Shown in pieces: positions 3,001 through 63,487 of a DNA stretch of 64,000 bases. The position numbers and the translations under genes were made by a program. Under the pieces are notes generated by a model. It did not search any database. It was not told where the DNA came from and worked only from the letters and a program-made list of their open reading frames with translations. The stretch comes from Cliona cf. orientalis (Eukaryota > Porifera > Demospongiae > Clionaida > Clionaidae): NCBI GenBank assembly GCA_963930775.1, contig OZ005691.1, positions 1,674,001-1,738,000 on the forward strand. Reading direction: 5' to 3'. The first letter of the stretch is position 1, and each line of letters opens with the position of its first letter.

Positions 3001-6000
3001 GGTACAAGTTCACCAAGGATTCGTGTGCATGTGTATGAACCTCCCAATAGGACTCGCCGAGACCTGCTCAAAATGAGAGACCAGCACAGCATTCAGGATG
3101 AGCATCTGCTCAGCCTCCACCCACTGCACCATCAGAGATCTCTACCAGCACCAAATGGTGTTGCTGATCATCAAGATCCTCTGTTGGAGTATATGCACCA
3201 TCAACAACCACATGGTGCACTACCAGAAGCTACACAAGGAATTCAAATTCAGCCACAGGTACATGTATAATATATGAGTGATACTTTCTCACCCACCTAA
3301 AGTGGTCGTATGCCAGTATCTCACACTCTAAGTAATGCTTTTCATTATAGAAAATTGTGTTTTCCCTCGGTTCAACTGTTCAATTGAGTCCTGACCCTTC
3401 TCGCTATGGAGTGATTCGGTGGATAGGCACGCTACCAGGCATAGAGGGGCGTATTACTGGAGTGGAACTGGTGAGTAGCGAAGTCCTCTCCTCTGTCTAT
3501 TTCTAATAATATTTATTATGCTTCCACTTGCTGATAATAATTGTGATATCTACATTCTACAGGAAGAGCCAATGGATGGCTGTGGTGATGGAATGTGGAA
3601 TGGAGTACGATACTTCACCAGTCGTCATGAACATGGTTTCTTTTGCCCTATTTCCTTACTTGTACCAGACCCAAGATTTGCTCAAACTTTGGCTGCTGAT
3701 ATCAATCGTAAGTTTTATTACACAAGTTCAAGATCTATAGTAGTATAGGATACGGAAGGGAATCTTCGGATCTCCCTCAATATCCTTTCTCATTATACTC
3801 GTCTTAAAGTTTATGAGGCATCAATTGTGCCAATAATTAATCTTACCATAGTAGATGGATGATGACTGTTAATTTCGTTATGATATCATAGTATACAAAA
3901 CTATGTTGTATTCATAAACCTTTGGCGATTTTTTTCCAATTTACTGTTGTACATTCATGATATTATTATTGAGTTAAATTCGCAGGTATTTAAATTTGCT
4001 ATATAAATATAACAGAAAGCTTTCGAGGGAGAAAACATTCGCAAATTTTGCTGTTTGAGAGCCATCTGCAAAAGTTTCCTCTGCAAAATTCTCACTTCCT
4101 ACTGATTCGCGAAATTTTTCTCCCTCAAATGTTTCTCGCTATATCATAGAGTCAGTAGACTCTATAAGTAGGGATGGCCCGGATATTGCCATATATGTAA
4201 TACATTACAAAAACTTGAATAACTCAGAGCAACTTAAATGTTAAGATTTTAACTCTCATATTCATGATCTACGCCAGAATATCTATCTATCAAGCCCCCA
4301 CACATCCATGGAAACGATCAGGTATGCCTGAACCAGCTGTATAAAAAATAGCCAATTGTCATTCTTTCTCTCTTTTTCATTACCAGGGCTAACTCAAGAC
4401 TCTCTGGACTGCTCACCTTAGTTCTCATATAAATCCACTCTATTTTGTAGCGCGCAGTGCAGTGTCATTTGTGTTATCATGACAGTTACGTAATGGTGGG
4501 TTTGGTCAGCGTATTGTACGATTGGGTGTGTCTTATACGCCATTTTGTCATATAATGCGCATGAATCATCGTCAACAGGAATATGATAGCTATAATCGAG
4601 AAAAGCAAGTGTTGGGATGTATATAGTGGACATGATTATCCCTACAAATCTTGATTGATTAGAACGGGTGAGAAAACTTGAAGTTCAAGATGTTTGATGA
4701 ATTAGGAAGGAAATAATTATCTAAACTTACCATTCGGGCTATTAGAATGTTCAAATAATTAGAGCGAGTATGGTAATACTGTGATCTGATTGGTTAAACT
4801 GAAGTATCTATCCTTCATCTATAGAAAATCATGTAAAGCTCCATAGAAAATGGTTATGGTTGTTGCTAGGCAGCAGTTTATGTGTCTAGCTTTTTGACAT
4901 TATTACTAAGATCTAAACATATTACTAATAGACGCTGTTGTTTGGTCAGAGTACGTGATTTAGAAGACCTCTGGCTCAGTAGAACCCTCGCCTCACTCAG
5001 GATCAAGCTACACAGAGCCCTTCGGTCTTCTAAATCATGTAGAAACCTCCTAAATAGTATCTAACTATTATATTTTAGATCCTACTTGTAACAAATACTG
5101 TGATCTGATTGATTAAACTGAAGTATCGATCCTTCATAGAAAATCATGTAAGCTCTGTAGAAAATCATGAAAATCATGTAAATTTTCTTGCCTATGGTTA
5201 GGGTTGTTGCTAGGCAGCAGTTTATGTGTCTAGCTTTTGGGCATTGTTGCTAGGATCTAAACATGTTAGACACTGTTTAGTCGGTTTCTACGTAATTTAG
5301 AAGACCTCAGGCCTCAGTAGAACCCTCGCTTCACTCGGGATTCTACATAGAGCCCTTCGGTCTTCTAAATCACGTAGAAACCTCCTAAACAGTGTCTAAC
5401 TATTATATAGATGATTAGTTACATAATATACACATGCATGCACTAAGTAAACATAGCTATTATATAATTTTAATTATAGCTCTAGATCATATTCCTTTGG
5501 AAGAGCAGCATGACCAGTTCATCAATCCTAGACAGATCTTTGGATATATGGGTGAAAGGAAAGGGATCCAGGGACACCAGAACTCATCCTATCTCGACTC
5601 AACCGTGTTTGGACTGTTTGCTGTCAGCGATGTCTTTGATAATATATTTTTGCAGCAGCAGTATGATGATCCTGATGGAGATGCGGTCAAATATCTTCTA
5701 TGGAAGGGGATTGTTAACCCACTCCGAAAGTATGCCCTGCACATAATATTATACACAATAACTGTGAATGCCTTAGTGCTTTGAAATGTTGATTTTTACT
5801 TGATGCCTTCACAATTCCGGGGGCTTTACCAATAATAACATTATTCTATATGATAATATCCTGTAGGTATGGAGCGGTACGCCGTGAGTCTGTCATGAGG
5901 CTTCGAAACAAGTTAGAAGAATTAGGCAAAATGAAAGGAGTAAATCAGGATGAAAAAGGTTCGGCTGCAGTGACATAATATTATTTTAGCACCAGAAAGC

Positions 6001-8915
6001 CCTTATACAATATACATCAGGGTTTATTTCAAGGGGGAGCAAGGGGGGGGGGGATTTTGCCCCCTCCCCCCTGGAAACTTGGTTGCCCCCCCTAGAAATT
6101 TGTTTGTTGGTCCTAGAGAGAGAGAGAGAGATATAGCTGCATAATATAACGAAATGGTAGCTAAAAGGTTGTTGTCATCATCATCATAATATTATATGGT
6201 GTATATACCTCTCAGAAGCAATCTCAGGGGTAATAAAATTAAAAATTTTCCTGGGGGAGCATACCCCCAGACCTCCCTAGATGGGCGTGCTTACGCACGC
6301 ACTGTGCTGATTCTTTCCACTTGCCCCCCCCCCCCCTAATATTTGGGCGCTAAGCATTTGCCCCCCCCCCCCAGAGCAAAATCCTGAAATAAACCCTGTA
6401 CATGCATGTAGCTGATTGTATGCTGATACTCTAAATCGTGTAGATCCAGAGGAGTTTTTGAACATGCTATTTAAGCACACTCTTCACGTTCCTCCATTTA
6501 TCAGTATCAAGTAAGATAATACATAACATTATTAATGCACAACAATCATAGACTAATATCGACTATCATCTTATTAGACGTCCCTTTGGTGTGGAAGCCG
6601 AGTACTTCGTACAGCTCTTTGTTGAACATGATGAATCGCTGAAGTTGCCTACTATTGCAGATCTTCTGAAGAGAATGTTTAAAGATCAGAAAATTCTCTT
6701 CACAAAGGTGTATGCTGCAAAGATAAAGCATAGCTATATATATTTATTCTCCACCTTTGTAACTTGTAATTAGATGCCCTCTAAGCTCCTAATCCAAGTA
6801 CCAAGATTCGGGCTAGAGTTTAAACCTTACCAAAAGGTTATTCCTGATACAAAGTTGAAAGTAGAGGACTTACTGTGCTCTAAACGTAAGTTCTGTGTGG
6901 GATGAGTAGAGGGCAGTCTTGCATGAGAACCAGACCTCTCCTTTTCTGTAGCATTGCCATGGATAAAATTTTGCTGCACCAGCAGTTTTGCCTAATATGG
7001 GAGTGGTCTGGTTCTTGAAAGGGCGGGAAGAAAGTGCACTTGACCATTATGGCATAGCGGGTAATAATGCTTCCATTTGCTTACGTTATGATTATGATGT
7101 AGACTGCTGCTTTATGTGTGGGGATTCTGCTTGGAAGAAATGCGTTGAATGTGCATCGCACTTCACAGCTAAGGCTGCCACTCCTGTGTATTTCTGTGAG
7201 AATTGTGCCAAGCTGTCACATGGACACGCTACAAAACGTGACAAGCATACAGTATCAGATGTGACCATTGGGTCTGACGATCTAACTATGCTTGAGCTTC
7301 TTTCTGTGATCTGTATCGAGACCAGCTATTATGTCTGCTTCACAAGGTCTGAAGATAGATGGGTTTTCTTTGACAGTTATGCTAGCCGAATCCATGAAAG
7401 TAAGGTAATAATGACTAAAACTCAATGATTATTATGCTATCATTGTTTGTGTAGAGGAAACATATTACAGCATTCCCAAGGTGGTGGACTGCACTGATGT
7501 ACTTAATGAGTGGGTCTACCCTGCTAATGGTGACCTCACCCGACTGTTGAACACACCTCCGAGAGAGTTGCCCGAGTATGTCCGTCGCTTCACTCAAGAC
7601 ATCTACCTCTGTGTCTACATCCAACCTGACGTGGGCATGTACGGGGATTTTGATGTGGAAGACTATGATTCAGAAGAAGGTAAGTTTAGAGTGTGTTCAT
7701 TATAATTGTCATTTTGATATTGTGTGCTAACATCATAGAGTACAAGCAGCCAGAAGAACCCAACAAGGCTACTGATGTAGACACTACGCAGCATGAATTT
7801 GATGAGCTTAAGGCTGAATATGCATTGCTACAGCAGCAGCAAGAAAAGGTCTGTAGAAAGATTAATACCAGGAAAATTTTCACTTATCTGAAAATACTCA
7901 GTTGCAGCAGGAGTATACTCAACTAAAGGATGAGCTAGTTGAAAAGGAAGAACGTGAGCAGGCTCGACATCAGCAAGAACTTGAACAAATTCAATGTCAG
8001 CATCAGCAAGAATTTCAGCAAGTTCAAGATCAACATCAGCGGGAACTCCAACAGATGGCTGCTAAGAACCAGTCCCTTCTCTCCTCCCAGCAGGAGTCAA
8101 TTGCCTTTGGAATCGAGCCATGGAAAGTGCCCCGTGAAGCTGTCGTGCTTGAAAGTGTGATAGGGGGAGGTGGTTGGGGGTCAGTCCACAAAGGAACGCT
8201 TCAAGTGGCTGTGAAGCAGTTCTATCCCAACATTATGAGCGAGCAGAATATAGCACGACTAAAGCGAGAGATGCGGATGTTGGCACTAATTCGACACCCC
8301 AATCTACTACAGTTCATCGCTGCTGTGTTCGACGAGAATGAAGACCACAGGCGAAGGCCTCCCTACATCATCACTGAGCTGCTAGATACGAGTCTACGTT
8401 CAGCATATGAGGATGCAAAGCTTCCTAGCCATAGTTTGCTGTCGATATTTATCGATACTGCTCGAGCTTTGGACTACCTTCATCGACGCCATGAGCCCAT
8501 CATCCATCGAGATGTAAGCAGTGCCAATGTTCTCCTCAAACAACAGCCAAATGAGAAGTGGATCGCTAAACTTTCTGACTTAGGATCAGCCAACCTTGCT
8601 CGCGAGGCGTACACCATGAACGAAGGCTCTAGGGTTTACTGTGCTCCAGAAGCATTCACCTTTGATCCCAATGCCCGCTCACAAGGAACTTTAACCCCAA
8701 AGGTAGATGTCTATAGCTATGGCATCATGCTCTGTGAAGTGGCAACCAGCACGTTTCCTGATATGGCAAAATATCCATCCTTGCTTGCTCGTGTTCAACA
8801 TGAATGGCCTCAACTACATCAGCTGATCATAGCTTGTACCAACCAAAGCCCCGAGCAGCGCCCCACTATGGAAAGTGTTCTTGACTCTCTAAAAACTTTC
8901 CTGGCCCCAATTTGA
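1..8915 (+). CDS. CYLD-like pseudo-deubiquitinase fused to a coiled coil and TKL-like kinase (5' end outside window)
   Basis: Thirteen exons are visible: <1-155, 2470-3258, 3351-3470, 3563-3707, 5480-5729, 5867-5958, 6444-6510, 6578-6707, 6774-6885, 6986-7399, 7455-7679, 7739-7848, 7908-8915. The joined frame is open for about 1204 residues. Order: second CAP-Gly (1-90), a Gln/His/Pro-rich linker, third CAP-Gly (315-400, GVRYF motif), a USP domain of CYLD type (403-840), a coiled coil (about 840-930) and a kinase (about 949-1200). The USP aligns along its length with CYLD, including GIQGH, DPEEFL and a Cys/His B-box insert. Its catalytic Cys is Ser439 (codon 5587-5589) and its catalytic His is Tyr734 (7327-7329), so it should not cleave ubiquitin. 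The kinase keeps the Gly loop (GGGGWG), VAVK, HRDVSSAN and APE; the metal motif is DLG. CYLD is known to remove K63 and M1 ubiquitin chains and to restrain NF-kB. Here a scaffold or ubiquitin-reading role upstream of the kinase is inferred. The fusion rests on matching splice phases, not on a transcript. Confidence 0.85.
1158..1497. repeat. Palindromic MITE-like element
   Basis: The left end (TCTAGTCTTCACCAGCCCC) is mirrored by the right end (GGGGCTGGGGACGAGACTAGA), and the inner arms (AGAGTCTGGTCAAATGCCTATA against CCTATACGTATTTGGCCAGA) are also inverted. There is no coding capacity. The end sequence resembles the GTCCCCAG palindrome family found elsewhere in this window. Confidence 0.5.
1857..2168 (+). 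other. Open reading frame inside an intron, origin unknown
   Basis: A frame rich in Asp, Gly and Glu runs from about 1857 to the stop at 2168 and ends in an Arg/Ser-rich tail. It is not needed for the CYLD-kinase model, whose flanking exons join in phase 0 without it. The composition is protein-like, but no family is recognised. It could be a retained exon of an inserted element, a nested gene's last exon, or chance. Confidence 0.2.
4771..5410. repeat. Two tandem copies of a palindrome-bearing intronic repeat
   Basis: Units at about 4771-5072 and 5093-5410 share long stretches, such as AATACTGTGATCTGATTG, GTTGTTGCTAGGCAGCAG and the arm pair TTTAGAAGACCTC / GGTCTTCTAAATCA. They lie in the intron between the CAP-Gly and USP parts of the CYLD-kinase gene. 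A short related piece (AAATACTGTGATCCGATTGG) occurs near 23878. Confidence 0.65.
6009..6399. repeat. Inverted-repeat element with CAGGGTTTATTTC ends
   Basis: The ends CAGGGTTTATTTC and GAAATAAACCCTG are exact inverts. The interior is rich in G and C homopolymers and in an AGAGAG tract. It sits in the intron between the second and third USP exons of the CYLD-kinase gene. Confidence 0.6.
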
Positions 8916-9736: not shown

Positions 9737-10597
9737 ATGGCTACTGCCAGTGAAATTAAGAAGAGATTGAAAGGAGTAAGTGAAATTGAATTGAGAAGTG
9801 TAGCTAGCTTCATAGTTTCTGGTAGAGGTAGTCTTTATAGCACCTTATTATTTTTTTATCAATCTAATGGCATAGTTATAAATTTTTTGTTGATCTTCAT
9901 CTTTTTCAGTATAAACATGCTGACATGGCGGCCAGTGATATTGCTACTATGCTGACCAACTTTAGGAACCTCAGGATGCAGGACATTAAGCTATTTGGTA
10001 AGATGTATAATATTATAGCTACACACTGAGTATAATAGCTATTATACAATCATAATTATTGTCATGATTGTATATAGTACACCCCAATGGCAAGCGAGAA
10101 AACTGCATTTCCATCTGTGGCACAATTCCAGTTACATTCAGAGGTCAGTATTATAACTAATGTAACTGAGAGACGTACTCAGAGAGAGAAAGATCGAGAG
10201 TGAGTGCGTGCCTGAGGGATGGAGGGAGGGAGGGAGAGACAGACAGATTGATAGTGTCACACTGAGGGAAGTAGGGGAGAGAATAAAAAAAACGAAGGTT
10301 ATACAATGACATTTGTATAGGTCTGATGTACAATATTCCTGTCATATTCTGGATCCACCCTAAACATCCGTATGAAGCTCCTGTTGTCTATGTGCTCCCA
10401 ACATCAAACATGGACATCCAACCTTCTCAGTATGTCGATGCCAATGGAAGAGTTCACATGCCATACCTCAACTTCTGGAAAGTAAGTTATAGTTAAGTGT
10501 GTATAGCTACTATTATTCAAGCTGGCCTTGCTGGTATAATTAAGACTGTGTACGAGGCTATCTTCAAATCTCCCTGTCTCTCTTTCTCGTCTCTCTG

Positions 10598-10664
<67 letters not shown>

Positions 10665-13600
10665 TATCATGTATAATCACAATGCTTGGGTCCAAATTGT
10701 TTTCTCTCGTGACGCTATCATTGTGCTATTTCTCTCCCAATAATGTTAACATCCTGCACGATCATGATGAGATAGGTCAGCACATCAGATCTCTCAGCCC
10801 TAGGGCATGTCTTGTGCAGTACATTTGCAACCAATTGTCCAGTTTACAGCAAAGCGGCCAGTGGTGTCACCTCACCGCGGATGCCGCTTTCACCGCAGTC
10901 ATCCTTAGGTCAGCTGTCGTCATCATGGTCAGCCAATGGCAGCAGTGCGACGACTCCACCCATCATCACAGATGTTGCCTTCCTTCATGCTAAAGAGAAA
11001 GTACCACACTATTACACTGTAGTAAGCCCTCAATCTGTGCTAGAATACAATGTCATGAGATTAAAAGATTGTACATGTGTACTAAATTAATTTTGTTATC
11101 CTTGTTTATTTATAGATTGAGCAGACTAAAGACGGAAAGAAGGCCATATTTAGCGAGGGTCGTCTCAACCGCTACTTCTGCTATTGCAAGAAACAAGTTT
11201 CAGAGAAGGTAAGATGACCATTGTAACCGTGTTTATTGATGTAATAAATACCAAAACCTTAAATGAGCTATCCTATTAGGACTTAATGGCCCTGGGGTGG
11301 GGGCAGTGACTAGCTTAATTGTATTATCCTTTGTGATCAGCTACGTACATGTGGCCTGCCATTCAATTGCTAGTGACCACCACAACTTGTACTAATAGCC
11401 ACCCACCCTCTAAAATTTCTGGATCACACCATACATATCAATTCAGTCTTAATTCTCTCAAATGCATCAGGATCTTCAAATCGTGTCTGGATTAATGATT
11501 GCATCAACCAGTGAACGTGCACAAAAGGGCTACCACCCCGTCAACAACACTCTGGACGACGGTGCACAGGCTTTCAAAAAGAAGCAGCTCCTGGTTCGCT
11601 ACGAGGCGGCCCAGGAAGCGAAGGAGGCTGTGGCAGAGATTGTGCTGTTTAATAAGAAAACTCACAAGAAAGAGGAAGTCCCTGAAGGATTCAAGCAATT
11701 ACCGTAAATTTTTTTGAAATGGAACTACATGTATGATAATAAGTTATCGACCTCATCCCCAGCTTTTCAATGTTACATGCATGCAGAGAGTGCGAAGTAG
11801 CTGGGGACAAGGCTAGCTATTAAAGCCTGTGACCTATCTCCTCAAAATCAAATATTTTTTCATTGGCGATATTATGTTGTTGGCTAATAAGAAATTAGTA
11901 GTAGGAATTTGTGGTGAAGTACCCACTCATTGTCGAAATTACGCACATGAAATTGTCCATGAATGAATGCATACACACAGGGAGTTGAGTGGTCTGCATA
12001 TTTGCTTTAAGACTGTGGACTTTCATTTCGCTTCACTGAGTCGCTCACGAATGAAACTATCCTCATCCACAGGTGAGTACACTCACTCATGCATGCAGTG
12101 CACTAATTTTACTCATGCAACAATGAATAATACCGTAGACTCGGGTTATTAAGCGCATGCGCTTATTACTCATGGTGGTAAGGAAATATGCGCTTAATAA
12201 AAAATGTGCGCTTATTCTTATTAACGAGAGTAGTTTAGCCACACCCCCTCACGGGCGGTCGTGATCCGCGCGAGGGATCGAAGTAGTCTCGCACTGGTAG
12301 AGCTATCAAGTGAGTAGCAGAGCCATCAAAAGGGACGGTAACCTGATCAGAAAGCTACAGTGAACAGCTAGGCTATATTTGTTGAGTATGCGCTTATTAG
12401 CCAATGCTAGTAGTAGGAAGGCAGCATGCGCTTATTAAAAAATGTGCGCTTAATAACGAGGTGCGCTTAATAACCCGAGTCTACGGTTTGTTATTATCCT
12501 ATAATATAGAGGATCTATTGAAGGCGAGTACATCCCCAGCTCCAACTCAGTCCCAGAATCTGGCACTATTGCAGCCGAGAAGGCCACGAAGCCCCGCCCC
12601 AAATCCTCCTATAATGTCAAATACAGGTGCTAACTCTATTAGTCACCACCACGCACTGAAGCTACGAGTTTTGAAACTATAGCTACTACCTTATATTAGC
12701 TATTAATTTGTAATATTACTGCCAATTTTCTCTTATAGAAGAAATGAAGGAACTCAAAGAAAAGATGGCTCAACTTCGGCACCAACTGGAGGTAGCCAAC
12801 ACGCAGATCCACGAAATGCAGATAAGTTCCCGGCACTCATGCGACCATGACCCTCCAGCTGCTGATGATGGTGAATATGTGTATGCAGATGTTCGATACA
12901 TCAATATTCAGAGAAGATTCACACTGGGTACCAGTGATGCACTCTTGCAAGCCAAGAGAAACGAAGTGACGATTGTCAGAGAAATTGGCCGTGGTGCCTC
13001 AGGATTGGTCTCAAAGGGTAGATTTCGCGGTCAAGAAGTGGCTGTAAAACAGATACACCAGGAGATCCTTTCACAACAGCACGTCATGGAGGAATTTCGA
13101 AGGGAAGTGACGATCATGGCGAACATTCAGCACCCAAATCTTGTCCGTTTCATTGGAGCCGTCTTCGATGAAAGTGTCCGAAACCTCATGGCTACCCCCT
13201 TGCTCCTCCTCGAGCTACTCCAGAAGAATCTTCGCCAAGCCTACGAGGATTCAGATCTTGGTTTTGGTGTGGCTCTCACAATATTCCGTGACGTGGCCTA
13301 TGGTCTACACTACCTCCACGAGCACCAAGAGCCCATCATCCATCGAGACGTGAGTGCCCCAAATGTCCTCCTGGAAGCTCTACCCGGGGGGACATGGAGG
13401 GCAAAGCTTTCCGATTTCGGTTCGGCAAATTTCCTCAAGCGCTCCAAGACGCCGGCCATGGGTGCCATCGTGTACACAGCCCCGGAGATGTTCCCACGGG
13501 ATGATCCCACTGCTCCCATGCCACGCCCAACTGTTAAGTGTGATGTATTCAGCTATGGGATAGTCCTCGTTGAGGTAATTACCAGGAGCTTACCCTCCCC

Positions 13601-13763
13601 TGAGAATCGTCACCGACTCTTTCAGGAGCTGCAGAGGAAGTGGCCGCAAGTGCACGATCTTGCGATTCAGTGCACACAGACTAGTCCAGCCAGTCGTCCA
13701 ATGATGTCAACTGTTCTCAATACTCTCTATCGTATCCCCACCACAGGACATATTATATTATAG
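9737..13763 (+). CDS. UEV (TSG101-type) + MABP (MVB12-type) + coiled coil + TKL-like kinase fusion
   Basis: Ten exons: 9737-9775, 9910-9997, 10078-10143, 10321-10481, 10776-11021, 11116-11208, 11471-11703, 11981-12072, 12510-12626, 12739-13763; 719 residues, all phases compatible. Residues 1-150 are a UEV domain: YKHADM, CGTIPVTFRG, YNIP, HPYEAPVVYV, VDANGRVHMPYL and FWK all track the TSG101 UEV, with no catalytic Cys. Residues about 185-340 form an MABP domain as in MVB12: ITDVAF, the Tyr-Phe-Cys strand, GYHPVNNTLDD, FKKKQL and a closing ELSGL. A Ser/Pro linker, a short coiled coil and a kinase (about 450-710) follow, with GRGASGLV, VAVK, HRDVSAPN, DFG and APE all intact. TSG101 and MVB12 are separate ESCRT-I subunits; UEV binds ubiquitin and PTAP-type motifs. 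An endosomal or ubiquitin-linked kinase is inferred. No transcript supports the fusion yet. Confidence 0.85.
10593..10661. repeat. (TC)n(AC)n microsatellite
   Basis: A run of TC dinucleotides passes directly into AC dinucleotides within intron 4 of the UEV-MABP-kinase gene. It creates spurious open frames on the minus strand. Confidence 0.9.
11751..11814. repeat. GTCCCCAG-palindrome element, copy 1
   Basis: CCTCATCCCCAGCTT is mirrored by AGCTGGGGACAAGG about 50 nt later, around a TTTTCAATGTTAC core. It lies in intron 7 of the UEV-MABP-kinase gene. Relatives occur at 21265, 26387, 36593 and 52312. Confidence 0.6.
12132..12487. mobile_element. MITE-like element with 17-bp perfect terminal inverted repeats
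   Basis: The left end ACCGTAGACTCGGGTTA and right end TAACCCGAGTCTACGGT are exact inverts, followed inward by repeated GCGCTTAATAA and GCGCTTATT motifs. There is no transposase frame. It fills intron 8 of the UEV-MABP-kinase gene and ends about 20 nt before the next acceptor. A decayed relative is in 670-1090. Confidence 0.8.
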
Positions 13764-14643: not shown

Positions 14644-17600
14644 ATGACAGCTGAGGCAGCATTTTTGTTGAAAGATATCCAAGGAGAAAAGGATTTGGGG
14701 AAAATAGGAGGTCTATTCAGATCCAATTCTAAGCTTGTATGTCGAGGTGAACTACTACTCACTATCCCAAGAGTCAAAGTCATTCCACGCAAGGATGGCA
14801 AGTCTGCACACAACTACCAGGTAGCCAGTGATCCAGCAGTTACTCTGTTTTGCATTGAAGATGATGTGGCACCAATCAGTGACTATGAATACCACCTTTT
14901 GACTGGTGTCAAGTCAAGGGAAGCACGCTATGGAGTATTTCAGAAAGATCTACTGGATTGGGGATCGAAACTGAAGGTGGAGGACTTTGTGTATGTGGCA
15001 CTTCCATCCAAAAGTCTAGTACCCAACCAGTGTGCAGTTTCAGTGATCAAATACATCGGTCCACTTCCAAATGAGCATGGAATACAGTTTGGAGTAGAGA
15101 TTCAAGTAAGTGCGTGTAATATTTAATATGCATATGTACCTGATGCTATTATTATTATAGGAAGAGCAGTACAGAAATCAAGGCAGTACTAATGGTTTTT
15201 TTGGTGGTGAGCAGTATTTCGAATGTGAGGAGAACCGTGCTCTCTTTGTATCACTTCAACGACTCTTGCCATTGAAGCCAGTACAGCAGGAGCCCCCGCA
15301 GCCTGAGCTCCCTCCAACTACTGATCCAGAGACACAGCACCCCATGAGCACTCGATCACAAAATATATCTCAGCAAAGTAATCTAGATCAACATATTGAT
15401 CACTCACCAAAGCGACCTCAGTCACGCTTCAAAATGAATGACCGGATAGTGGTGTATAATAAGCAAGGACTTGGTATCCATGGAACAGTGAAATGGATTG
15501 AATATGTTGTCTGTGCTGATGTATTCATTATAGCTATTGGGATTGAAACGGTATGGCATAATCCAGTTAGCCTCTGCTTTCTGAAATCACTGTTTATTAT
15601 CGAAGGCTGGTTGGGGCTGAATAAGGGTTTAATAGTGATGGGACATATCAGCTAGCTAACGTAGCTGAGTATAGTGGTGATACTACTTATTGCCTAATAA
15701 TAATATAAGTCAAAGAGTGTAGACAGTTCACTCAGTCTATAGAACTTTACATGCTCCAAGGCATTCTGTATAAGGAGTACATTCTTGGCCGCCACAAGAG
15801 TGGGAGGTACCTTCTTAGAAAGCACAGGCTCTACCCCTATCCCTCTGTGTCTGTATAACTATGTACCTATGTACCTTACTTGCAGGATGTTGCTGTGCAA
15901 TCAAAAGATTTTGTAGGGTCATTGACCGAATTTAATGATCGTTTTAAGTGTAGTGAGAGCAGCCACGGAAAAATTGTAATGCGCGAATCAGAGGTGATCT
16001 CAGAAGCAGTGGATGCTACTCGATTTCATGAACAGAGGAAAAAAACTTCAATTCAAGGAAGCAATGTTGATCAGGTGGGAGATGAAATTAGACTAAGTGT
16101 ATAGATAATGGATCCCAGGCCTGCTTTATTGATCATGCATGAGCAGCAGAAGTACTATGACATTGTATATCATCATCAACAATCATTGCCAGGGCCAGGT
16201 CATAATTAATTTTAATCTCGCAAGCCAGACCCTCACACTCCTTACAAACGCTGTGAAGTGTGAGAGTCTGGCTTGTGAGACTGGTCATAATTATGTACTA
16301 GGGGGCTACAGGTATTATATACTTTCCAAAAGATCATCAAGATACTATAGGCAGATCTATAGCATGAGGGCACATCCCATCACCCGCCTTTTTTGGTTGG
16401 CCATACACATAATAGTATTGTATAATTCTATATAAGGCATTATTTATTATTCTGGCTGATGTGAGTTTTTTTGCTTCATATGAAACAATTACCACATCGG
16501 ATTCCCTAGTAGCTTCATTGTATAACATTATGGTAAAGGGTTACTATGTATGTAAGTGGCATACTTAAGTTATTTCGTGTTTCAGAAAAGGGTGTTAGGG
16601 ATGTAACTTAACAGTCTAGCCAGATCAACTTGTATATTATACTAAACAATGGGTATGCATGGTTGCAAATTTTTCTATACGTTTTGCACGTGTATACCCC
16701 CTCTCCTTATAACAATACCAGTTGTTACCTCGTAGAAAATTGGAAATCCCATATGTACGTGTATATATAGCAGCTAGTGAACTACTTTAATTCATACTGC
16801 TGTTCATCAAGGATGTGGTTGGAGGATATGGCCATAACTGCATCAAAACTGATCAAATAACTATTATTATTATCATGGATACAGTGCTGCCTCTCCCTCA
16901 CCCTCATCCAATACTACACCAAGTTTTAGGCTACATGATTGGAGTTTTACTGTAGCTTTTTCACCACCAGTTATTTGCCATTTACAATATTTGTTGCAGG
17001 ATGAAGATATGGTAGGAGGAGCAGAAGAAATGAATGCCACTGCCAATACAAGCCTCAGTCCTGTTGATCCCAAAACAAGATCACTAACAAGGAACATTGC
17101 AGAGATGTTGGATTTAGCTGAAAACTATGAGAAATCAATGGAAGAATTGAACCTCAAAGTGCAGCAAATGAAAGAGCAGCAAGAAGAGCACCAACAAGCT
17201 GAATTAAAGCTTCAGCAGGAGATTCAAGAAGTACGGCAACAAAGTACACGCTTTCAGGAACTGCTAACTGCAGTAGTAAATGAAAAAGAGGAGCTTGAAG
17301 AAAGTATTCAAGAGCAACTAAAGGAGCAGCGGGATCAGCATCAAGAAATTGAAACACTACTTCAACAAGAGCTCCAAGAAGTTCGGCAGCAACATACTCA
17401 GTTTCAGCAACAGCTACATGAAGTGGTGCAGGAAAAAGAACAGCTTCAAGCTCGTCTTCAACAGCAGTTGAGAGAGCAGCAAGATCAACATCAACAGACT
17501 GAAATGCAACTCCAAGAAGTACGGCAGCAGTGTACTCAGTTTCAGCAACAGGTACATGATGTGGTGCTGGAAAAAGAACAGCTTCAAGCTCGTCTTCAAC

Positions 17601-61804: not shown

Positions 61805-63487
61805 CATTGTAGCCATACATATGTCCCATAATGGGCCAAATACATACTACAATAAATGTGGTAATGCACACTTGAATGACATCGACCATATATAGCTGTC
61901 AGTAGCTATAGCTATAGTAGCTTAGTCCCAATCTGTGATTGTGATGATGATGCGTGAAATCTATCATGTGATAATTCGCATGGAAATTTATTTGGAGTAG
62001 GAAAACCAATCGATCCTAGCATTATAATTGATTTTTATGAAATGGTATGCATCTCCCAATTCACCCTTGTTAAGCAAGAAACGAGCTCGGGGTTCCCCCT
62101 CTGTAGCTACTGCATGTTTATGAGTAGCTACAGAGTCAGTATTATATTATTATGTCATGAGCAGATTTGATCAATAAAATTAAAATTTAATTTTAATGGT
62201 GTTGTAGATATCAATCATGTGTGGCCCATATATAGTATGGGTGAGTAATCATAACAAATTCCTAACGATTAAGGGAGTCTCCGGCATTATAATAATCATT
62301 ATTCTTCTCAGGATACGAGGTATTTTGGCTACGGTGATAGCAGTGGGCGGTTGAATGGAGTGGACTACTTTCACTGTGAGAGCAACTGTGGCAGTTTTGT
62401 ATCCTGGGACAAGCTCTTTCTAGCGAGCAACTTTGACGGTGCTTCTGATACTCAGTCAACTGCAGGTTATGAATGTACACAGGCAAAAGATGTGAAGTGG
62501 GCAGTCTCAACCGAAACTTTATCCTCCTTTCTGTCAGTGGATGACAATAATGATAGCTCACCATTATTGCCAGGGCAATGCAGTGAAGGTTGTAATGGAC
62601 CAGCGGAAAAATTAAATCAGCACAAATTTAAAGAGATTGAGGGCCATAAGGAGTTCAGGGTCACCACCGAGACCAACATCTCAACAGATTTCGAGAGAGA
62701 ATGGTGGGAAATTTCTCGGAAAAGCATTCAGGTGTCCGACATAATTGTCCGCAAAGACCAATGGGGATGTGTGATGCAGGGGACGATGTACCGTCAAAGA
62801 GTTGCAGTCAAATCGTTCCATCAAGATGTTGTGGCTCGACTGGTATCGGGTGAGGTCCAGCAAGAGATGAACAGAGTGGCTCAAATTCACCATCCAAATC
62901 TTCTCTTAGTTATCGGAGCTGTTCTTGATCCAGTTGCTGGTCCACTCATTGTGACAGAGTTTCTGGATCAGACACTTCAATCAGCTTATGAGGACCAACT
63001 TCTTGAAGATCACAGCAAGCTTCCGATTCTTCGAGATGTCGCCTCCGCACTAAACTATCTACACTCGCAGAATCCACCAATAGTCCATGGCAATGTAAAC
63101 AGTTGGACTGTTTTGCTAGAAGCTCTAAGGAATGGAAGATGGAAGGCAAAACTATCTGACTTTGGAATGATGGATTTGATTTTCCTCATACGCAAGGCTT
63201 CAAAACACGATAATACGGATGCACAGACTAATGAACATTCAGCCCCTGAGCTGCATTCAGACATGGAGTGCCATAATCATCCCCCACTAACTCCAAAGAT
63301 TGATGTTTACAGCTTCGGCGTTCTGTTGAGGAGGATCTCACTTAATAATCTCCCCAGCAGCAGTTCTCCTCAGGATGGAGTTGATCCTCGTTGGATTTAC
63401 CAATTGGCTGAAGATTGCACTAGATTGGCTCCTCACAGGAGACCAACAATGGATGATATTCTTATGCAAATTGATGGAATTTTTTAA
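61040..63487 (+). CDS. CAP-Gly + pseudokinase
   Basis: Two exons: 61040-61528 and 62312-63487; 554 residues. The start matches the paralogues (ATDFLLLEDV against the FLL openings of the genes at 14644 and 52468). Residues about 115-210 form a CAP-Gly domain with a good second half (RLNGVDYFHC, CGSFVSWDKL), split by the same phase-0 intron as in the paralogues. There is no long coiled coil. The kinase-like domain (about 290-550) keeps VAVK, DFG and a degraded APE, but HRD is HGN (codons 63086-63094), so the catalytic Asp is Asn and the Arg is Gly. The Gly loop keeps only one of three Gly (KDQWGCV). It should be catalytically dead or very weak, and could regulate or dimerise with the active paralogues; that is inference. 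Confidence 0.82.
61768..61802. repeat. (AAT)n microsatellite
   Basis: An (AAT/ATA) run of about 35 nt in the single intron of the pseudokinase gene. Confidence 0.85.

Follow-up and report, generated by a model that had tools for sequence, protein, structure and literature searches.

A gene for UEV, MABP and kinase domains

We analysed a 64,000-nucleotide stretch of the genome of the sponge Cliona cf. orientalis (contig OZ005691.1, positions 1,674,001 to 1,738,000; hereafter the window, C3:1674001-1738000 in our labelling, in which C marks contigs and L marks loci), focusing on one forward-strand gene at 9737..13763 whose predicted product joins a UEV domain, an MABP domain and a protein kinase domain. 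Genome searches covered 216.8 Mb in 149 contigs. The gene consists of ten exons separated by nine GT-AG introns and reads from an ATG at 9737 to a TAG at 13761-13763, giving 2160 nucleotides and a protein of 719 residues. Splice sites, phases, the open frame and Pfam matches all support this model. Its exons (9737-9775, 9910-9997, 10078-10143, 10321-10481, 10776-11021, 11116-11208, 11471-11703, 11981-12072, 12510-12626 and 12739-13763) were delimited from splice sites and phases, by eye and by homology rather than with a gene predictor.

Pfam placed a UEV domain at residues 22-141 (exons 2-5, 9934..10844; E 2.4e-33, 115 bits against a cut-off of 27), an MVB12 match (PF10240) at residues 182-386 (E 2.4e-28, 99.8 bits against a cut-off of 22) and a protein kinase domain at residues 457-702 (12972..13709; E 1.3e-34, 120 bits). 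In the PDB, residues 1-360 matched the TSG101 UEV (E 4.2e-29) and the MABP domain of MVB12B (3tow, E 5.4e-7), and the MABP piece searched alone recovered 3tow at E 3.1e-7. Because the 3tow match stops near residue 320, we take the MABP domain proper (from residue 182, exons 5-8, 10965..12072) to end there, in exon 8, despite the longer Pfam envelope. A short coiled coil, recognised by eye and not with a coiled-coil predictor, lies at about residues 379-406 (12739..12821). An earlier note on this DNA, made from the letters alone, had proposed just such a frame of 719 residues over ten exons; the three Pfam scores bear it out, the UEV and MABP profiles both matching far above their cut-offs. We regard a UEV-MABP-kinase fusion on one spliced frame, as predicted from the sequence, as well supported.

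Exon 5 (10776..11021) carries the end of the UEV domain, a linker of about 40 residues and the start of the MABP domain without interruption, and because both domains meet within this single exon, their join is independent of splice prediction. The predicted join between MABP and kinase is read from splice sites and phase alone. Intron 7 (11704..11980) takes out an apparent stop at 11705-11707, which is the donor site of the intron itself (exonic CC followed by GTAAAT). This phase-2 intron has a counterpart at the same position and phase in the genome's own MVB12 gene, where reading through likewise gives an immediate stop, and a gene end at 11705-11707 is therefore rejected. A protein stopped at this codon scores 74.4 bits with PF10240, compared to 99.8 bits for the full splice form. 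The MVB12 intron and this 25-bit gain support the view that the MABP match runs across four exons and that the 11703/11981 splice skips the stop. Farther downstream, exon 9 (12510..12626), a proline-rich linker of 117 nucleotides, is symmetric (phase 1/1): the phases of exons 8, 9 and 10 fit, and the kinase stays in frame, whether exon 9 is included or skipped. Intron 8 also holds an element resembling a miniature inverted-repeat transposable element (window 12132-12487), with 37-nucleotide inverted ends that are 86% complementary.

These details bear on a rival account in which the locus makes two products: a UEV-MABP protein whose frame closes in intron 7 or intron 8, and a separate kinase that starts within exon 10. 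Read-through of intron 7 or of intron 8 does stop soon (after residue 309 or residue 365, respectively), and an ATG codon stands near the start of exon 10 (residue 381). In addition, the piece encoded by exons 8-10 alone (167 residues) gave no match in a PF10240 search; exon 8 contributes to the MABP match and does not carry it alone. Against this account, however, stand the shared position and phase of intron 7 in MVB12, the 25 bits lost by stopping at 11705-11707, the compatible phases of exons 8, 9 and 10, and a relative on C8 (described below) whose kinase is likewise preceded by a UEV. We consider two separate products very unlikely.

Origin of the UEV and MABP exons

A search for true TSG101 and MVB12 genes, as the earlier note had proposed, found both elsewhere in the genome, on C13 and C9, ruling out that the fusion has replaced them. 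The TSG101 gene on C13 has a UEV followed 3 kb downstream, on the same strand, by Vps23_core (C13:1529003, the sole match to this domain found in the genome). The MVB12 gene on C9, assembled by hand, scores 143.9 bits over almost the whole PF10240 profile, including the UMA end (28.5 bits over profile positions 204-251). The UEV of the fusion is 58.8% identical to that of the genome's own TSG101 over 136 columns, and its MABP region is 46.8% identical to MVB12 over 171 columns and 53.7% identical over the core 136. When introns were compared on aligned proteins, three of the four UEV introns shared column and phase with their TSG101 counterparts, with the fourth one codon off, and all three MABP introns, the 11703/11981 intron among them, agreed with MVB12 in position and phase. 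This comparison covers seven introns of the fusion, the last two being without counterpart. Descent of the UEV and MABP from copies of TSG101 and MVB12, respectively, is supported by these shared intron positions. The genome also contains a third MABP-type gene, L006 (C3:191476), with proline-rich frames downstream.

Vps23_core, or the steadiness box, is part of the ESCRT-I core, and it was not among the Pfam matches of the fusion up to E 1. For MVB12 and UBAP1, the C-terminal UMA/EBB2 region is reported to bind the VPS37-TSG101 stalk (PMC4007767); the 114-residue stretch of the fusion between MABP and kinase gave no PF10240 match in a search for UMA. Because neither of these assembly parts was matched, the fusion is probably not an ESCRT-I subunit, a functional reading drawn from profile absence. 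VPS28 is present elsewhere in the genome, as is a VPS37-type Mod_r domain that scores barely above the cut-off and has one stop in the matched frame.

Nonsynonymous (dN) and synonymous (dS) divergence was estimated by the NG86 method. The UEV of the fusion and that of TSG101 differ by dN 0.26 and dS 1.45, and the MABP of the fusion and that of MVB12 by dN 0.41 and dS 2.43, the latter pair with silent sites near or past saturation. Kinase pairs gave a dS of 4.1 in one case and an undefined value in three, again near or past saturation. Pairwise dN/dS, which here spans the TSG101 and MVB12 branches as well, suggests constraint on the UEV. Ratios well under 1 also speak against a decaying duplicate or an assembly artefact, as do the nine GT-AG splice sites with their open frame, the UEV-MABP junction inside a continuous exon and the existence of a second UEV-kinase gene; we give this explanation hardly any credence.

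The kinase and its family

The best sequence matches of the fusion kinase in the PDB were CTR1, TNNI3K, Roco4 and TAK1, and also IRAK4, all of which we take to belong to the TKL group. The core motifs are all there (the VAVK lysine, the HRD aspartate, the catalytic-loop asparagine and the DFG aspartate), and in this respect the kinase is intact, as had been claimed. Its catalytic loop reads HRDVSAPN, however, with serine in place of the HRDxK lysine that is usual in Ser/Thr kinases. The genome search returned at least 148 scored matches to this kinase family from 1034 candidates, of which the best 30, including the fusion, were taken as loci. HRD and the catalytic-loop asparagine are kept in 30 of these 30 kinases, and the HRDxK lysine position is occupied by serine in 28 and by cysteine in 2. 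Among ten open reading frames (ORFs) from the kinase loci, eight matched a kinase profile, some of them with additional matches to coiled-coil or other families that all stayed under the cut-off; the other two gave no Pfam match.

In the kinase tree, which omits L029 (three stops), the fusion and six kinases on C2 form a clade of seven (starred), the fusion being 67 to 72% identical to the six. Members of this clade carry a loop insert after APE, which contains PTAP in the fusion (residues 635-638, 13506..13517), PSAP in five of the C2 kinases (L008-L012) and PNAP in one. A UEV search of the genome gave no match on C2, the home of these six nearest kinases, and the loop motif therefore probably predates the UEV.

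A second UEV-kinase gene, L037 (C8:200500-206999), was assembled here and encodes 1053 residues. Like the fusion it has a UEV, a coiled coil and a family kinase, and four of its four UEV introns match TSG101. Unlike the fusion, it showed no MABP in the 295-residue N-terminal part that was scanned, its coiled coil is much longer, and its kinase belongs to a different branch. The kinase data reject a sister relationship between the two genes (log-likelihood difference 63.4, p-AU 7e-17 in the approximately unbiased, or AU, test), with the caveat of a long branch for the C8 row, which can pull on such a test. A UEV tree of four sequences favours grouping TSG101 with the fusion, and the grouping of the fusion with the C8 gene stays unrejected at p-AU 0.069. 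Because the kinase data split the two UEV-kinases and the UEV tree leans the same way, family kinases have probably captured a UEV twice; the alternative is a single capture after which the kinase part was swapped.

The gene immediately upstream of the fusion (about 5479-8915) offers a further combination. Two of its stretches gave matches to 2vhf, a structure of the CYLD protease (E 4.9e-11 and 5.5e-8), and they precede the predicted family kinase exon of the same gene. Six of ten window ORFs, including the three from this CYLD-like gene, were without a Pfam match. We found four CYLD-type domains in the genome, all within C3 1.635-1.680 Mb (L044-L047), and at least three of the four have a family kinase within about 3 kb downstream, among the matches listed. 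We take the cysteine of the NSCYLDS box and the histidine of the ETSHY box to be the catalytic residues of the CYLD protease. Both are kept in L045 and L047. In the window copy the cysteine position is serine and the histidine position tyrosine, so this domain is probably a pseudo-enzyme beside a kinase; L046 also has serine at the cysteine position, and no ETSHY box was seen in it. Elsewhere in the window, a CAP-Gly match lies at 15161-15652 and a second, just under the cut-off, at 62273-63484, with kinases downstream or in the same frame.

To survey what lies upstream of other family kinases, six stretches (L050-L055) were fetched and 18 of their ORFs scanned. We call such modules fused on the basis of order and strand, without splicing, the kinase domains of L040 being the exception, as they share one open frame. 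Four of the six stretches held a domain over the cut-off (ubiquitin, Ras, Death and Ras). On C19, L050 with L016 has a family kinase preceded, on its own strand, by three ubiquitin domains, and Ras-family GTPase exons likewise precede kinases in L051 (C18) and L055 (C2), as do Death domains in L053 and also in L038. The match in L054 was a weak one to Kelch, under the cut-off, and the ORF scan of L052 found no domain upstream of its kinase. In L040:932-6018 (C2), three kinase domains lie in one long frame behind Kelch repeats, and the third of them falls in the clade of the fusion. Such varied upstream modules (Death, ubiquitin, Ras, Kelch and CYLD-type) suggest that one kinase cassette has been repeatedly grafted to differing input modules.

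Proposed function and alternatives

Seven positions of the fusion UEV, aligned to human T58, Y68, N69, P71, T92, M95 and V141, are unchanged; these belong to the P(T/S)AP groove of TSG101, M95 among them. With most of the compared groove positions conserved, the fusion UEV may bind P(T/S)AP proteins. Among the ubiquitin-contact positions, V43 and W75 are kept. In human TSG101, M95A is reported to impair PTAP binding and N45A to impair ubiquitin binding (PMC7073217). As for membranes, ESCRT-I is described as attaching weakly to negatively charged ones via the MABP domain (PMC9436306).

We hold it about an even bet that, in a single gene, the N-terminal exons of copied TSG101 and MVB12 genes were joined to the coiled-coil/kinase cassette of a large family, and that the product acts as a ligand-activated membrane kinase and not as an ESCRT-I subunit. 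The UEV would take up P(T/S)AP proteins in its groove and might contact ubiquitin weakly. The MABP domain would keep the protein on acidic membrane as a peripheral-membrane kinase, and the coiled coil would pair fusion molecules. Where endosomal or plasma membrane is rich in ligand, the molecules could then cluster, allowing the kinases to activate each other and signal. The PTAP in the kinase loop could occupy the UEV in cis, to be displaced once a stronger ligand arrives. Of the two functions put forward in the earlier note, the reuse of ESCRT-I parts in signalling has the best fit, with domains that appear to come from the sponge's own TSG101 and MVB12 and lack the assembly regions; the other, a possible ubiquitin-binding kinase at endosomes, is only half favoured.

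Several observations weigh against this proposal. Two groove positions have changed in the fusion UEV (Y63 to Phe and F142 to Tyr). At the ubiquitin contacts, N45 is Pro, D46 is Asn and F88 is Tyr (Ala, Asn and Tyr in the genome's own TSG101). With N45 and D46 both changed, ubiquitin binding may be absent, a change not special to the fusion since the genome's own TSG101 also lacks N45. Catalysis is not certain either, because the HRDxK lysine is missing, as in the relatives examined. The link between UEV and loop PTAP may be accidental, given that relatives in which no UEV was found also carry a P[TS]AP loop, and a P[TS]AP motif arose by chance in 621 of 20000 shuffles of the fusion protein. 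To these we add the missing MABP match of the exon 8-10 piece, the near-saturated or saturated dS of the MABP and kinase pairs and the inclusion of the TSG101 and MVB12 branches in the dN/dS estimates.

The retained groove residues and MABP, the assembly parts not found by profile and the presence of other ESCRT-I genes in the genome would also suit a regulator or competitor of ESCRT-I, which would compete with TSG101 for P(T/S)AP partners and, at that same site, phosphorylate cargo or the ESCRT machinery. Related kinases, however, sit with modules unrelated to ESCRT, which makes an ESCRT-specific kinase output improbable, and we view such a regulator as unlikely.

The same kinase family raises the prospect of an integrated-decoy immune kinase, in which UEV and MABP would be host-copied baits bound by intruders and binding would trigger the kinase. 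The family is clustered and multiplied, with changing upstream modules of which several are copied from host proteins; a UEV occurs on two separate kinase branches; the CYLD-like neighbour has Ser and Tyr at its catalytic Cys and His positions; and a frame with three kinase domains lies in the clade of the fusion. Viral PTAP motifs, moreover, are reported to bind the TSG101 UEV (PMC7073217). Set against this is the constraint on the UEV suggested by pairwise dN/dS, and we rate a decoy role for the fusion as improbable. Equally speculative is the broader idea of multiplied integrated-bait kinases, in which the cassette would have been joined to a range of host copies (TSG101 UEV, MVB12 MABP, CYLD-type protease domains of which two have lost the catalytic Cys, ubiquitin, Ras, Kelch and Death).

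Relation to known systems and significance

The ligand-activated membrane kinase that we propose has partial likenesses among known proteins. TSG101/Vps23 has a UEV with nearly the same intron pattern; the fusion, unlike it, adds MABP and kinase, shows no Vps23_core match and has no long proline-rich region. MVB12A/B shares the MABP and its introns, whereas the fusion has a UEV in front, a kinase behind and no UMA match. The TKL-group kinases are the nearest PDB matches to the kinase, yet the family of the fusion has an HRD[VI]S or HRDIC loop, and the fusion adds an ESCRT-type N-terminus. UEVLD, which consists of a UEV and lactate dehydrogenase, likewise attaches a UEV of the TSG101 type to an enzyme, but that enzyme is not a kinase and there is no MABP. 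GPCR-TKL/K in choanoflagellates and GPCR-TK in choanoflagellates and sponges, in which G protein-coupled receptors (GPCRs) are joined to kinases, are described as repeatedly evolved fusions (PMC12716839). These resemble our gene in having a TKL or TK domain behind an unrelated input module, and differ from it in that the module is a seven-transmembrane receptor rather than a cytosolic ubiquitin/ESCRT module.

TSG101 is about 390 residues long. In a protein database search with residues 1-400 of the fusion, none of 5227 candidates reached E<=0.001, a result that says little because proteins of TSG101 length fell just under the length limit and no animal protein was returned. No description of a UEV-MABP-kinase arrangement was found in the open-licence literature; the one paper in which UEV domain, kinase domain and MABP occur together, PMC7865452, has CDIP1 as its subject. 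The earlier view that the arrangement is undescribed holds to that extent, but the fusion is no lone oddity, given a second UEV-kinase and relatives that bear other modules. What is new is the UEV-MABP-kinase combination, TKL-like or TK domains fused with other modules being already known as a kind.

Were the bait idea true, such kinases would turn interference with trafficking or ubiquitin signalling into phosphorylation, and could be set beside the integrated decoys and tandem-kinase resistance proteins of plants as their animal equivalent. In the fusion itself, two domains that usually meet only as ESCRT-I subunits lie in one predicted polypeptide with a kinase output, and the assembly parts are missing. 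This offers a natural test of what UEV and MABP do on their own, and it would couple the recognition of trafficking-type ligands directly to phosphorylation. Beyond this one gene, the family suggests that a kinase cassette has repeatedly gained input domains, of which the ubiquitin system supplied several.

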